From assembly GCF_000423065.1 (NCBI RefSeq), contig NZ_AUHG01000010.1, positions 1 through 64,000 on the forward strand: a stretch of DNA of 64,000 bases. The letters run 5' to 3'. Below, in pieces: positions 20,756 through 61,367 of this stretch. The first letter of the stretch is position 1. Each line of letters starts with the position of its first letter. The position numbers and the translations under genes are program-made. The notes beneath the pieces are model-generated. The model saw only the letters and a list, made by a program, of their open reading frames with translations. It was not told the origin of the DNA and searched no databases. This stretch comes from Christiangramia echinicola DSM 19838. GTDB taxonomy: Bacteria; Bacteroidota; Bacteroidia; Flavobacteriales; Flavobacteriaceae.

Positions 20756-20829
20756 CGGTCTGGACGAGACTCGAACTCGCGACCCCCTGCGTGACAGGCA
20801 GGTATTCTAACCAACTGAACTACCAGACC
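20756..20829 (-). tRNA. tRNA-Asp (anticodon GTC)
   Basis: Reading the minus strand, the acceptor arms GGTCTGG and CCAGACC pair over 7 bp, followed by discriminator G. The D arm (AGTTCAGTTGGTTAGAAT), anticodon loop CTGTCAC with GTC, and T loop GTTCGAGTC are all canonical. CCA is not encoded (CAA follows). A consensus promoter lies just upstream. It borders the polysaccharide locus, a usual place for island edges, but no direct repeat of its 3' end was found. Confidence 0.95.
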
Positions 20830-22349: not shown

Positions 22350-22504
22350 TAGCCCTATTTTGGGTCCTCACGCCTATGGCGTGACCGGGCTTTCGGCGCT
22401 ACACGGTAGCTCGCCTCAATCCCTGGCCCAGACTTCAGAATGTTTCAGTCATTCTAAGCGCAGTCGAAGCACTATTCTCTGAGATCCTGAATCAAGTTCA
22501 GGAT
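22350..22504. repeat. GC-rich structured element plus REP-like palindrome
   Basis: Two elements lie between trxA and dnaE. The first, about 22355-22435, is much richer in GC than its surroundings and holds a strong hairpin with arms CACGCC and GGCGTG. The second has the palindromic core ATCCTGAATCAAGTTCAGGAT at 22484-22504, the same family as repeats elsewhere in the window. Neither looks coding. Confidence 0.65.
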
Positions 22505-22520
22505 GACGTTAAAATAAAGA

Positions 22521-27865: not shown

Positions 27866-27911
27866 CGCACTTATTAATAACCGGGGTCGAGAACCCCAAA
27901 ATTTAATTTTT

Positions 27912-29076: not shown

Positions 29077-29105
29077 AGATGCTGAAACAAGTTCAGCATG
29101 ACGCT
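29077..29105. repeat. REP-like palindrome
   Basis: The core GATGCTGAAACAAGTTCAGC followed by ATGACGC, between the convergent rimM and leuS genes. Same family as the repeat inside leuS and others in the window. Confidence 0.8.
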
Positions 29106-29167: not shown

Positions 29168-32041
29168 CTAGCCTACAATATTTACAATTTTACCCGGCAC
29201 TACGATCACTTTTTTAGGAGTTCGACCATCCAGTTGCTTATGTGTTCGATCATCTGCCATCACCGTTTTTTCAATTTCATCTTTACCCATATCTAACGGA
29301 AGTTCCATCGTAAATCTCATTTTTCCATTAAAGGAAACCGGATAGTTCTTCATGCTTTCTACCAGATACTTCTCCTCGAAAACAGGATAGCTCGCCGTAG
29401 TAACAGATTCTGAATTCCCTAACTTCTCCCAGAGCTCCTCTGCTATATGAGGAGCATATGGAGCGATTAATACTACAAGCGGCTCAAGTACTTCCCTGCT
29501 ATTACATTTTTGAGCAGTCAATTCATTTACACAGATCATAAAAGTAGAAACCGAAGTATTAAAGCTGAAATCCTCAATATCCTCTGTTACTTTCTTTATC
29601 GTCTTATGCAGACTCTTCAATGAATCTGCAGAAGCCTTATCATCAGAAACAGAAAAATCTTCTCCATTGTGATACAGCTTCCAGAGCTTTTTCAGGAAGT
29701 TATGTACTCCGGTAATTCCTGCGGTATTCCATGGTTTTGCCTGTTCTAATGGCCCAAGAAACATTTCATACATTCTTAAAGTATCTGCTCCATAATCATG
29801 GCAAATCTCATCAGGGTTCACTACATTGTATTTGGATTTGGACATTTTCTCCACTTCCCTGCCTACAACATATTTTCCGTCTTCAGTCAGGAATTTAGCA
29901 TCTGCAAATTCTGGTCGCCATTTTTTAAAGCCTTCAATATCCAGTTCATCTGATGAATTCACCAGAGAAACATCGGCATGTATAGGCTGCACGCTATTTC
30001 CTTTGATCTGATTTTTGGAAACAAAAACATTTTCCCCTTCAAGTCTGTATACGAAAGCGCTGGTTCCCAGGATCATTCCCTGGTTGATCAGTTTTTTAAA
30101 TGGCTCTTCAACGGTTAAAAATCCGCGATCATGTAAGAACTTCGTCCAGAATCTGGAATATAATAGGTGTCCTGTAGCATGTTCGCTACCACCTATATAT
30201 AGATCTACATTTTCCCAGTATTGCTGAGCTTCTTCAGAAACAAAACGATCTGGATTTCCAGAATCCATATATCTGAAAAGATACCAGCTACTACCAGCCC
30301 AACCCGGCATGGTATTCAGCTCTAAAGGATAGATTCCGTTGTCTTGAGACCCATCGACTTCGCTCAGGGTGACATCAGAATTAGATTCGTCATGCTGAAC
30401 TTGTTTCAGCATCTTATTGGGAACTACTTCATTTTTCTCTGTATCCCAGGCCCAATCGGTTGCATTTCCTAATGGTGGCTCGCCGGTTTCGGTAGGCAGG
30501 TATTTCTCAACTTCAGGCAACCTTAAAGGAAGGTGCTCAAGGTCTATCATTTTAGGTAAACCATTCACATAATAAACCGGGAATGGCTCTCCCCAATATC
30601 TCTGGCGGCTAAATACCGCGTCTCTCAACCTGTAATTCGTTTTTCCGTAACCCTGACCAGTTTTCTCCAGCTCAAGAATTACTTTATTAAGTGCCTCTTT
30701 ATATTCCAGTCCGCTTAGGAAATCTGAATTCGCGATCACCGTACCTTCTTTTCCCGCATATGCTTCCTGGGAAACATCTATATTTTCAAAAATATTCGGA
30801 ATTGGCAGATCAAAATGTCTTGCAAAATCATGATCACGTTGATCTCCACATGGAACCGCCATTACCGCCCCGGTTCCGTATCCGGCAAGCACATAATCCC
30901 CGATCCAGATCGGTATAGATTCATTTGTAAACGGATGTTCCGCATAAGCACCGGTAAACACACCGCTAATGGTCTTCACATCGGCCATACGCTCACGTTC
31001 ACTCCTTTTGGCACTGGCCTGAATATAAGCGTCTACATCTTCTTTTTGCGCTGAAGTAGTTATCTCTTTTACCAGGTCATGTTCTGGTGCAAGGGTCATA
31101 AAGCTAACTCCGAAAATAGTATCGGGACGGGTAGTAAAAACACCAACTTTATGATCTGTATCTTTAATATTGAAGTCTACATGAGCTCCAACAGATTTCC
31201 CGATCCAGTTACGCTGACTTTCCTTTAAACTTTCAGTCCAGTCTATTTTATTAAGATCTTGAAGCAGTCTTTCTGCGAAAGCAGAAATTCTCATGCTCCA
31301 TTGGGTCATTTTCTTTCTAACTACGGGATATCCTCCACGTTCAGAAACACCATTTACGATCTCATCATTCGCCAGAACGGTCCCTAATTGTGGACACCAG
31401 TTCACTTCAGCTTCCGCTAAATAAGTCAGGCGATATTTCAGCAATATTTGCTCTTTTTCATCCTGAGAATATTTATTCCATTCTTCAGCAGAAAATTCCT
31501 CAAAATCATCATCGCAAGCTGCATTTATTCTCGAGTTACCTTCCGAAGAAAAAATGTCTTCCAATTCAGAGATCGGACGGGATTTCTCAGCTTCCTGGTC
31601 ATACCAGCTTTCGAAAAGCTGAATAAAGATCCATTGGGTCCATTTATAATAGTCTGGTTCACTGGTTCTCACTTCGCGGCTCCAGTCAAAAGAAAACCCT
31701 ATCTTATCTAATTGCTCACGATAGCGAGCTATATTATTCTCTGTAGTTACCGCAGGATGTTGCCCGGTTTGAATAGCGTATTGCTCTGCCGGAAGCCCAA
31801 AACTATCATATCCCTGGGGATGCAACACATTGAAGCCTTTGTGACGCTTAAAACGCGCGTAGATATCACTGGCGATATAACCCAGCGGATGCCCAACATG
31901 CAAGCCTGCTCCCGAAGGATAAGGGAACATATCCAGCACATAATATTTTGATTTATCAGAATCGTTTGAAGCTTTGAATGTCTGGTTCTCTGCCCAGTAT
32001 TTCTGCCATTTTTCCTCGATCTTATTAAAGTGGTAACTCAT
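29168..32041 (-). CDS. leuS: leucyl-tRNA synthetase carrying an in-frame repeat-derived insert
   Basis: A 957-residue class I synthetase that charges tRNA-Leu. The HIGH signature is HVGH in GAGLHVGHPLGY (about residue 50), an editing domain lies in the middle (TTRPDTIFGVSFM), and KMSKS sits in VEKMSKSKYNVV near residue 731. Residues about 543-566 (MLKQVQHDESN, DVTLSEVDGSQ) are not synthetase sequence. They are the translation of two REP-like repeats at 30344-30415, inserted without a frameshift just before the conserved LNTMPGWAGSSWYLF motif. Since leuS is essential in nearly all bacteria, the insert is presumably tolerated in a surface loop. A second pair of repeats lies just upstream of the start. 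Confidence 0.97.
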   Translation of the reverse strand: MSYHFNKIEEKWQKYWAENQTFKASNDSDKSKYYVLDMFPYPSGAGLHVGHPLGYIASDIYARFKRHKGFNVLHPQGYDSFGLPAEQYAIQTGQHPAVTTENNIARYREQLDKIGFSFDWSREVRTSEPDYYKWTQWIFIQLFESWYDQEAEKSRPISELEDIFSSEGNSRINAACDDDFEEFSAEEWNKYSQDEKEQILLKYRLTYLAEAEVNWCPQLGTVLANDEIVNGVSERGGYPVVRKKMTQWSMRISAFAERLLQDLNKIDWTESLKESQRNWIGKSVGAHVDFNIKDTDHKVGVFTTRPDTIFGVSFMTLAPEHDLVKEITTSAQKEDVDAYIQASAKRSERERMADVKTISGVFTGAYAEHPFTNESIPIWIGDYVLAGYGTGAVMAVPCGDQRDHDFARHFDLPIPNIFENIDVSQEAYAGKEGTVIANSDFLSGLEYKEALNKVILELEKTGQGYGKTNYRLRDAVFSRQRYWGEPFPVYYVNGLPKMIDLEHLPLRLPEVEKYLPTETGEPPLGNATDWAWDTEKNEVVPNKMLKQVQHDESNSDVTLSEVDGSQDNGIYPLELNTMPGWAGSSWYLFRYMDSGNPDRFVSEEAQQYWENVDLYIGGSEHATGHLLYSRFWTKFLHDRGFLTVEEPFKKLINQGMILGTSAFVYRLEGENVFVSKNQIKGNSVQPIHADVSLVNSSDELDIEGFKKWRPEFADAKFLTEDGKYVVGREVEKMSKSKYNVVNPDEICHDYGADTLRMYEMFLGPLEQAKPWNTAGITGVHNFLKKLWKLYHNGEDFSVSDDKASADSLKSLHKTIKKVTEDIEDFSFNTSVSTFMICVNELTAQKCNSREVLEPLVVLIAPYAPHIAEELWEKLGNSESVTTASYPVFEEKYLVESMKNYPVSFNGKMRFTMELPLDMGKDEIEKTVMADDRTHKQLDGRTPKKVIVVPGKIVNIVG
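30344..30415 (-). repeat. REP-like repeats inserted inside leuS
   Basis: Two palindromic elements in the coding sequence: CATGCTGAACTTGTTTCAGC at about 30390-30409, and the companion GACTTCGCTCAGGGTGACA at about 30356-30374. Both match repeats found between genes in this window. The reading frame stays open through both. Confidence 0.85.
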
Positions 32042-32065
32042 CTTCTATCGCTTTCTTTTAGATTT

Positions 32066-32127
32066 CGTCATGCTGAACTTGATCCAGCATCTAAAAATAA
32101 GACCCTGAATCAAGTTCAGGGTGACGT
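32066..32127. repeat. pair of REP-like palindromes upstream of leuS
   Basis: Two hairpin units in tandem: GCTGAACTTGATCCAGC, then CCCTGAATCAAGTTCAGGG, bracketed by CGTCA and TGACG. They lie in the leuS leader or promoter region. Confidence 0.8.
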
Positions 32128-32189
32128 ATTTTAACCTGCCTGCAAAAATACAATTTTAAAGGACTTATGCGGAATGATTAGATGTTCTA

Positions 32190-33156: not shown

Positions 33157-33285
33157 ACGTCACTCTGAACTTCAGGGTCTGTAGATGAGATGCTGAAGCA
33201 AGTTCATCATGACATCCCTGTGTTGCACTGAGCTTGTCGAAGTGCATTTCTTCAAACGCATGCTTCGACAGGCTCAGCATGACAT
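33157..33285. repeat. cluster of REP-like palindromes between divergent genes
   Basis: Several elements follow each other: CTGAACTTCAGGG, GATGCTGAAGCAAGTTCATC, TTGCACTGAGCTTGTCGAAG, and ATGCTTCGACAGGCTCAGC as an inverted partner. The cluster lies between the PanE-like gene and the FtsX-like gene. A 61-codon ORF across it is only a translation of the repeats. Confidence 0.75.
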
Positions 33286-53926: not shown

Positions 53927-54200
53927 GTCATTTCGAAGAAGCGAAGCACCTGAGAAATCTATTTTATATCGTTTCGAACAAAATGAATTGGTCTCAACTA
54001 CCCGAGATTTCTCTCTTTGGTCGAATTAACAAAAAAAGAAAATCCCGTTATGAAGTATCCCTAGAATACGCTCATGAAGACAAGTTCTTAACCGGCATGC
54101 TGAAATTGGTTTAGAATCTCAATAGACCCTGAATCGAGTTCAGGGTGACGAAGAATTATAATAAGATTGTTCAACTTGTTACACTGAGCCTGTCGAAATA
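53927..54200. repeat. composite REP-like module, copy 1
   Basis: Order: a CATTTCGAAGAAGCGAAGC / AGAAATCT element, its inverted partner AGATTTCTC...TTTGGTCGAA, then a CCCTGAATCGAGTTCAGGG palindrome, a short spacer (ATAATAAGATTGTT), and TTACACTGAGCCTGTCGAA. The same order recurs in copies 2 and 3 on the far side of the VOC gene. Confidence 0.8.
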
Positions 54201-54205
54201 CCTTT

Positions 54206-54592
54206 CTATTGCATGGAATGAATCCCGATCATGTTACCTTCGGTATCCTTAACCAGACTTATAAAACCGAATTCCCCAATAGACATTTTCTCTCTTACTA
54301 AATCCCCGCCGGCATCTTTAACCCGGGATTCCTCGACACTGCAATCTTCACTTCCAAAATAAACAATGGTACTATTACCTCCAGCTTCCACACCCTCGAC
54401 ATGCACCAGGGCGCCAGATGTTTTTCCTTTTGAATCCATATCCCCTGGAAAAGAAAGCATTTGCAAGGTATCTTCTGTTGGATTACCCAAAGGAGTTAAT
54501 TTAGTTTTAAAGACTTGCTCGTAAAAAGATTTGGCCCGGTCCAGATCATTCACATAGATCTCAAACCAAACTACCGGATTTTCAGTTTTCAT
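54206..54592 (-). CDS. VOC-family (glyoxalase/bleomycin-resistance fold) protein
   Basis: A 128-residue VOC protein. One beta-alpha-beta-beta-beta module starts NPVVWFEIYVNDLDRAKSFYEQVF, and the second ends FGFISLVKDTEGNMIGIHSM with the metal-site Glu position replaced by Gly-Asn-Met-Ile-Gly. The fold hosts many metal-dependent lyases and dioxygenases; the specific reaction is unknown. The gene stands alone, bracketed by copies of the composite repeat module. Confidence 0.85.
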   Translation of the reverse strand: MKTENPVVWFEIYVNDLDRAKSFYEQVFKTKLTPLGNPTEDTLQMLSFPGDMDSKGKTSGALVHVEGVEAGGNSTIVYFGSEDCSVEESRVKDAGGDLVREKMSIGEFGFISLVKDTEGNMIGIHSMQ

Positions 54593-54756
54593 AATTATTT
54601 GATTAAAAGTTAAACAGACTTAAATTTAACCTTTTTTCAATCAGAATTTAAAGGGGAGATTTTGCTGATTTTATGTCATATCATGTTCACATTGAAATGC
54701 TCGTACGGACTTAGTTTTAGCATAATTCAATTTCGCTAAGGAGGACAGTTCCAGGT

Positions 54757-54988
54757 CATTTCGAAGAAGCAAGGCGACTGAGAAATCTAAATTTTAAGAT
54801 TTCTCCCTTTGGTCGAAATGACAAAAAAATCCAGTTGTGAAGTTTCCTCGACTACGCACTGGATGAAAAATCCTAAACCGTCATGCTGAAATTAATTCAG
54901 CATCGCTGGAGACCCTGAATCGAGTTCAGGGTGACGAAAAATTATATTAAGATTGTTTATCTTGTTACACTGAGATTGTCGATGTGCT
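54757..54988. repeat. composite REP-like module, copy 2
   Basis: Same order as copy 1: CATTTCGAAGAAGC and AGATTTCTCCCTTTGGTCGA elements, the hairpin GCTGAAATTAATTCAGC, the palindrome CCCTGAATCGAGTTCAGGG near 54913, the spacer TTATATTAAGATTGTTT, and TTACACTGAGATTGTCGA. Confidence 0.8.
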
Positions 54989-54999
54989 CCTGTGTCAAT

Positions 55000-55180
55000 A
55001 CAAACAAAATGAGCTGTCTCAACTACGTAAAGATTTCTTCGCTTTGCTCGGAATGACCTTTGGAAACGGATGTCATACTGAAATTGAATCAGCATCTCAG
55101 GAGACCCTGAATCGAGTTCAGGGTGACAAAGAGGTATATTAAGATTGTTTAACTTGTTACACTGAGCCTGTCCAAGTGCT
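55000..55180. repeat. composite REP-like module, copy 3
   Basis: Third copy directly after copy 2: an AGATTTCTTCGCTTTGC element, ACTGAAATTGAATCAGC, CCCTGAATCGAGTTCAGGG near 55105, spacer TATATTAAGATTGTTT, and TTACACTGAGCCTGTCC. Confidence 0.8.
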
Positions 55181-61260: not shown

Positions 61261-61367
61261 AAGGCCCGTCTGAAATTTTAATTATCGTCATCCTGAACTT
61301 GATTCAGGATCTCTAGAGAAGCTGAATCAAGTCCAGCTTGACGGCTAAAATTTCCAGACGGGCTTTT
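61261..61367. terminator. terminator-like hairpin with a REP-like repeat in its loop
   Basis: The arms AAGGCCCGTCTGAAATTTTA (61261-61280) and TAAAATTTCCAGACGGGC (61346-61363, continuing as TTTT) pair with one bulge and lie between two convergent genes. The loop is filled by a repeat at 61286-61344 made of two hairpins, CCTGAACTTGATTCAGG and GCTGAATCAAGTCCAGC, bracketed by CGTCA and TGACG. Confidence 0.75.

Follow-up and report, generated by a model that had tools for sequence, protein, structure and literature searches.

The window, a 64,000-nt stretch of the genome of the marine bacterium Christiangramia echinicola DSM 19838, contains the leucyl-tRNA synthetase (LeuRS) gene leuS, and two short repeats lie in frame within this gene. 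The gene and the elements inside it are as follows.

29168..32041, minus strand: leuS, leucyl-tRNA synthetase, 957 aa in a single uninterrupted frame
30388..30415, plus strand: REP-A, in frame in leuS, with a CGTC tag, an 8-bp stem and a 5-nt loop; coding-strand reading MLKQVQHD
30375..30387, minus strand: spacer of 13 nt between the facing tags of REP-A and REP-B
30348..30374, minus strand: REP-B, in frame in leuS, a decayed TGTC-tagged repeat TGTCACCCTGAGCGAAGTCGATGGGTC; reading VTLSEVDGS

The encoded LeuRS is of the bacterial type (TIGR00396 leuS_bact, 1.7e-282), and its closest named relatives are those of Christiangramia sabulilitoris and C. gaetbulicola. The LeuRS search of the own genome gave five matches, and besides leuS the sole other among the matches listed was weak (6.1e-9). 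On the coding strand the insert reads AAG[ATGCTGAAACAAGTTCAGCATGACG]AATCTAATTCTGA[TGTCACCCTGAGCGAAGTCGATGGGTCT], with the translation KMLKQVQHDESNSDVTLSEVDGS. Upstream of LNTMPGWAGSSWY, the window LeuRS has VVPN-KMLKQVQHDESNSDVTLSEVDGSQDNGIYP, whereas the nearest congener (937 aa) has VVSN-DKIDDKTVFP. The preliminary description, made from the DNA letters, had put the insertion at about 24 residues; the insertion is there, but the net gain is 20 residues (957 versus 937 in the closest insert-free LeuRS), and a few host residues beside it also differ (DKIDDKTVFP in the congener, ...DNGIYP in the window). When the LeuRS of relatives was aligned and inspected for the same residues as ordinary sequence, the insert-free ones showed the short reading given above, and the idea of an insertion stands.

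REP-A, whose plus-strand sequence is CGTCATGCTGAACTTGTTTCAGCATCTT, forms its hairpin with a fold z of -4.4 at the DNA level. The segment consists of two CGTC-type REP palindromes kept in frame, REP-A and REP-B, whose tags point toward each other. REP-B is decayed; it lacks the stem of 8-9 bp with a loop of 4-5 nt, and its folding was no better than chance (z +0.4). No splicing (Hint) domain of an intein was found by Pfam (E ≤ 0.001) in the window LeuRS or in L146, a LeuRS bearing a DUF559 domain. An AlphaFold model built from a 27-row alignment had a mean pLDDT of 55.8, too weak for placing the loop, and in the comparison with solved structures residues 514-573 were unaligned to the Thermus enzyme.

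Similar repeats are found throughout the window, including both sides of leuS.

22482..22508, minus strand: CGTC REP
29077..29103, minus strand: REP-A copy, intergenic, downstream of leuS; core identical to the LeuRS copy
32066..32126: pair of intergenic REPs immediately upstream of leuS (32066-32092 plus, 32100-32126 minus), folding into one large hairpin
33188..33214, minus strand: CGTC REP with a TGTC tag
54124..55128: REP cluster (54124-54150, 54879-54906, 54910-54936, 55102-55128)
61286..61343: intergenic REP pair (61286-61312 plus, 61319-61343 minus)

The pair upstream of leuS had a fold z of -6.8 (32062-32130). With up to 3 mismatches allowed, REP-A matched the window 8 times where chance would give 0.01, and these represent 7 sites since 54883-54903 was counted on both strands. 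The earlier statement that both palindromes also lie between genes here therefore holds for REP-A and fails for REP-B, for which the window gave no second match. A structural scan of the window found 12 tagged hairpins, 11 of which were judged to be true REPs, compared with 0-3 in five Markov controls. Genome-wide, the REP-A class pattern (up to 2 mismatches) had 113 matches and the reversed control pattern none, and the stems covaried on both sides among the genome copies listed (GCTGAA/TTCAGC, CCTGAA/TTCAGG and others). When 50 REPs from the window and 20 own-genome stretches were sampled, 42 lay outside ORFs of at least 100 aa. The remaining eight comprised the LeuRS copy, two in the N-terminal extension of a GIY-YIG ORF, four in an ORF formed by a repeat array and one at a C-terminal end, so that the LeuRS copy was the sole mid-gene REP in a long gene in this sample. 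Elsewhere in the own genome (locus L203, C4:205516-205928), five CGTC REPs are arrayed with a spacing of about 96 bp. Rfam gave no REP family match in the window and three loci; its matches at 27873-27907 and 20756-20829 of the window were an S16-Flavobacteria ribosomal protein leader and a tRNA.

REPs with a CGTC tag are the subject of a 2013 paper whose first author is reportedly Di Nocera. That paper defined the class (PMC3733652), and in the passages of it considered here the hosts include Bacteroidetes, with G. forsetii by name, the repeats are unassociated with transposase genes, and some lie in frame within genes, including tRNA synthetases of other bacteria. The repeats described here agree with those passages in the CGTC (or TGTC) tag standing outside the stem on one side, the 8-bp stem, the 5-nt loop, the occurrence in pairs and the high copy number; they may differ in the short unpaired tail, which is CTT, CTC or similar here and mostly fits CCA there. 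The LeuRS pair is thus a well-supported new example of an already described phenomenon, in-frame CGTC REPs.

We compared LeuRS across the genus, using 24 genomes, of which 23 were readable and one had a LeuRS fragment only. A related insert was present in 8 of the 23, the own genome included, and absent in 15; the seven congeners carry it at the same site as the window's LeuRS. The congener L032 has a shortened remnant. The claim that REP-like repeats lie in frame inside leuS was therefore borne out, with one open frame and an insert missing from most relatives. The claim that a mobile repeat had landed in a coding sequence was supported as to the in-frame repeat; a recent landing in this genome was not supported, nor was the proposal that the insert by itself demonstrates movement. 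REP-B had one other match in the own genome, a degenerate one, and its core is present in congeners. Since REP-B is nearly missing elsewhere in the genome, the pair was probably not assembled from two local landings; together with the related inserts in seven congeners and a common 3′ flank described below, this indicates an allele that was probably inherited or imported ready-made.

The position of the insert, hereafter site 2, is one of two at which LeuRS repeatedly carries REPs; site 1 is in the editing domain, at about residue 292 of LeuRS L002. In a set of 122 LeuRS coding sequences, some duplicate or partial, differing REP-derived peptides (MLKQVQHD, TLKQVQGD, HSELVSES, CHSERSEESH, VTLSAVEGS and IPTERSGEESH) occupy these sites in many genera. 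When 120 of the coding sequences were scanned for tagged hairpins, 15 and 14 matches fell in the bins of the two sites and 23 were scattered over the rest; the Markov controls gave 22-25 in total. Site states were scored by eye, counting decayed forms as REPs and other, non-REP length differences as lacking one, on a FastTree tree built without the insert columns. REPs were found at site 1 in 22 of 118 rows, requiring at least 19 changes, and at site 2 in 19 of 117 rows, requiring at least 15. The tree left out L001 (identical to the window), the fragments L041 and L042, L043 (a duplicate of L004) and L111 (no full frame), and row L117 was unscored at site 2. As far as the literature searches reached, this recurrence is unreported. 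Around residues 647-667 of L002, a third site has extra segments of about 50-90 aa that do not look like REPs (L028, L033-L035 and L037-L039, from several genera).

The 3′ flank [DNEGH]G[IV][YF]PLEL is found in every one of the 19 site-2 REP rows and in none of the 98 rows scored as lacking a REP there. We take this flank to mark an old micro-allele that species have exchanged with one another, with convergence as the alternative. The reading frame was biased as well. The scan for A-type repeats at the LeuRS sites gave 16 matches, all in one phase, and one of them (L097) is probably spurious; the other 15 read MLKQVQHD/TLKQVQGD-like or xHSELVSES-like, and none uses the hydrophobic VMLNLFQH frame. 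Over the 16 matches mean hydropathy was -0.95, where a random open frame would give -0.20. The simulated p is merely indicative because the rows are related, and the other REP kinds at these sites read in two phases (VT.SAVEG and CHSERSEES), which counts against a single-frame bias.

The same two LeuRS positions also receive unrelated elements. For one protein of each kind, Pfam confirmed a DUF559 (PF04480) domain that lies in frame within LeuRS, MetH or RecG or terminates HisD, and conserved peptides recognized by eye indicate more copies in these proteins and also in IleRS and an HsdR-like protein. These cassettes are about 140 aa long with translated GC-rich palindromic ends and occur in several Bacteroidia genomes. 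The rows, with labels partly by eye, are as follows.

LeuRS: L031, L032, L038, L039
MetH: L123-L126, L130, L147
RecG: L135, L189
HisD: L128
IleRS: L178, L179

Within LeuRS, DUF559 cassettes occur both at site 1 and at site 2 (L162, L174, L175, L182). Because unrelated cassettes and several kinds of CGTC REP share these positions in many genera, the sites appear to be shared for their tolerance of inserts, and the preliminary description was supported in calling the segment tolerant. A DUF559 domain was found in 192 of 396 genomes of the class, many among the matches listed being in frames longer than 300 aa. The cassettes are like known DUF559 proteins in matching the family and unlike them in their palindromic ends and their in-frame position in housekeeping genes; literature on DUF559 showed no such in-frame cassettes by title or abstract start. 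Standalone DUF559 genes carry GC-rich palindromes of their own, and in L131-L134, L136, L148, L149 and L152 such genes are flanked on both sides by two-hairpin GC-rich repeats, apparently inverted as judged by eye.

Three candidate movers of the CGTC REPs were considered. RAYT (PF01797) was rejected, with no match in the own genome and one in 8 of 24 genomes of the genus. DUF559 was rejected likewise, as no CGTC REP lay within 500 bp of 13 standalone DUF559 loci. The third is a GIY-YIG nuclease, and the congeneric protein used as query matches PF01541 with 57 bits, the cut-off being 22.6. Five own-genome copies (two in L193, three in L202), all related to one GIY-YIG clade, are flanked on either side by REPs no more than about 230 bp away. 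One of the five has an internal stop, and they lie in stretches that were chosen around REPs and are therefore a biased sample. A sixth related copy (C5:58407-58682) counts against the link, its nearest REP among the matches listed being about 2.1 kb away.

A less biased test uses loci found by the GIY-YIG protein query and not by REPs. In Flavobacteriaceae, a REP lay within 350 bp of the nuclease at 21 of the 30 best-scoring loci, and 9 had no convincing REP. A plasmid search returned 33 records, and among the 15 loci used in the test, convincing REPs lay within 350 bp at 10 (Shinella, two; Sinorhizobium meliloti; Sphingobium, two at the same genomic place; Rhizobium CIAT894; Neorhizobium; Azospirillum; Aeromonas; Photobacterium) and were lacking at 5. 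No REP was found within 350 bp of the nuclease in Planktothrix, Spirosoma, Rhizobium K1/93 and Novosphingobium, and a single match near the locus of Sinorhizobium K101 (L276) was judged spurious. REPs also adjoin the nuclease gene at a 16th plasmid locus outside the test, that of Shinella HZN7 (L291). The stems near the nuclease vary with the group (CCTCGGGCTTGACCCGAGG, CCCCGGGCTTGACCCGGGG and TTCCCGCGCAGGCGGGAA).

REP density fell steeply with distance from the gene. At the 28 best-scoring Flavobacteriaceae loci, the 5.6 kb lying up to 100 bp from the gene contained 36 REPs and the 28 kb more than 1 kb away contained 5 (6.4 and 0.18 per kb); at the 15 plasmid loci, the corresponding 3 kb and 60 kb contained 19 and 12 (6.3 and 0.20 per kb); L244, L259, L228 and L232 were excluded for their short flanks. 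A plus-strand REP on the left and a minus-strand REP on the right, both within 120 bp, bracket the nuclease at 10 of the 28 and 8 of the 15 loci, respectively. The bracketed clade spans Bacteroidota, Alphaproteobacteria and Gammaproteobacteria. REP type tracks nuclease clade in a poorly resolved tree of 55 rows, from which 20 of 75 loci were omitted as their protein was too short or not extractable. The idea that all GIY-YIG genes are alike in this respect was rejected, since at mixed congeneric loci a REP lay within 120 bp in 3 of 28, and two of these three belong to the query clade. Beside some GIY-YIG genes that are less closely related, REPs do lie 69-280 bp away (138-279 bp in L222 and L236), indicating that the link extends beyond a single clade.

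Gene and repeat also co-occur among 120 Flavobacteriaceae genomes. The nuclease (E < 1e-17) was present in 28 of 31 genomes with at least three REPs versus 24 of 89 others (Fisher, 4.5e-10), and in 33 of 47 with at least one REP versus 19 of 73 others (p 2e-6). Six threshold combinations gave Fisher p from 4.5e-10 to 1.2e-5, all ignoring phylogeny, and the REP pattern represented one REP type, which bears on the 24 of 89 low-REP genomes with a nuclease that were counted against the association.

Nuclease-REP units and possible derivatives of them were seen at individual loci. Azospirillum lipoferum 4B has the nuclease together with four REPs between sufB and sufC, where the gap in the four relatives examined is 55-129 bp with neither nuclease nor REP. 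In Sinorhizobium meliloti Ak57, a complete nuclease gene adjoins a REP, a 3′ remnant of a nuclease gene and another REP (by eye; L274 2662-2822), and such a remnant between REPs could be the route by which a nuclease-less REP pair arises. Sinorhizobium K101 has no nuclease at the same place but retains REP relics, and thus cannot serve as a clean empty site. As far as the literature searches reached, a GIY-YIG partner of CGTC REPs is unreported; papers on GIY-YIG with extragenic palindromic sequences, palindromic repeats, transposition or RAYT showed no REP link by title, in a search that covered only a minority of subscription papers and no bioRxiv preprints, so that prior art is possible.

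From these arrangements we propose that the GIY-YIG nuclease mobilizes CGTC REPs, and we consider it fairly probable that the LeuRS insert is old and exchanged, and belongs to a class spread by the REP-bracketed nuclease. In this scheme, the nuclease would cut after recognizing the tagged hairpin, and during repair REP-nuclease-REP units, or derivatives of them without the nuclease (single REPs and pairs), would be copied into new places. The REPs in LeuRS may have been moved in this way. The LeuRS site tolerates about 20 extra residues, only open and mostly hydrophilic readings surviving, and recombination would have carried the insert-bearing leuS micro-allele from one species to another, its REP content turning over in the meantime.

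The opposite relation, in which the GIY-YIG gene is a parasite homing into or between REPs that something else moves, is unlikely in our view. It would suit a genome with 113 REPs and a handful of GIY-YIG copies, and REPs can serve as IS insertion targets according to passages of PMC3733652, but the REPs beside the nuclease are intact rather than split, their type tracks the nuclease clade as far as that tree resolves, and in A. lipoferum the nuclease and all four REPs are present together and missing together from the relatives. Somewhat less doubtful, although still improbable, is that the LeuRS insert is an inert relic under neutral decay, spread by ordinary homologous recombination of leuS with the nuclease now uninvolved. 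The loss of folding in REP-B, the shortened remnant in L032 and the flank common to all site-2 REP rows agree with this; yet REP kinds, orientations and sites vary between genera, indicating that REP content is rewritten and not merely decaying, and the genome-wide nuclease link is left unexplained. Recurrence at the same two sites might also reflect selection of the loop for a useful LeuRS or mRNA property, such as control by an mRNA hairpin. We regard this as very improbable, given that the insert is missing in 15 of the 23 readable genus genomes, that the peptides are unrelated between genera and that the unrelated DUF559 cassettes argue for mere tolerance.

REPINs belong with GTAG REPs and RAYT transposases, and GIY-YIG homing endonucleases are a known GIY-YIG class. 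The arrangement described here resembles GTAG REPs with RAYT, as far as descriptions of that system go, in having short palindromes around a small nuclease-like gene and many copies without the gene; it differs in the CGTC tag and in having GIY-YIG in place of a Y1 transposase, the own genome having no Y1_Tnp match. It shares the PF01541 catalytic domain with the homing endonucleases and is unlike them in that REP palindromes adjoin the gene, with no intron or intein seen at the loci checked. Rickettsia palindromic elements (RPE), compared by description, are likewise palindromes kept in frame in protein genes, although Rickettsia is of another phylum, and the passages of PMC3733652 considered match the CGTC repeats inside R. 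conorii genes to RPE-4 and RPE-6. Both the two-site recurrence in LeuRS and the GIY-YIG link are absent from those passages, and a count of "giy-yig" in the paper gave 0.

On balance, we incline slightly to the broader view that CGTC REPs, and perhaps Rickettsia-type palindromes as well, are the non-autonomous part of a cross-phylum GIY-YIG system that is the counterpart of REP/RAYT, with a second, unrelated system of nuclease-like DUF559 cassettes with GC-rich palindromic ends, translated unspliced in essential enzymes and using the same LeuRS sites. In the passages of PMC3733652 considered, the mover of CGTC REPs was left open in 2013; a nuclease that is physically linked to them in three bacterial groups, each with REP sequences of its own, makes the question testable at the bench. 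The GIY-YIG partner and the recurrent LeuRS sites would, if true, amount to a new variation on the REP/RAYT theme. The LeuRS sites are a natural record of the extra peptides that an essential enzyme tolerates, and MLKQVQHD or HSELVSES in annotated proteins can signal translated mobile DNA.
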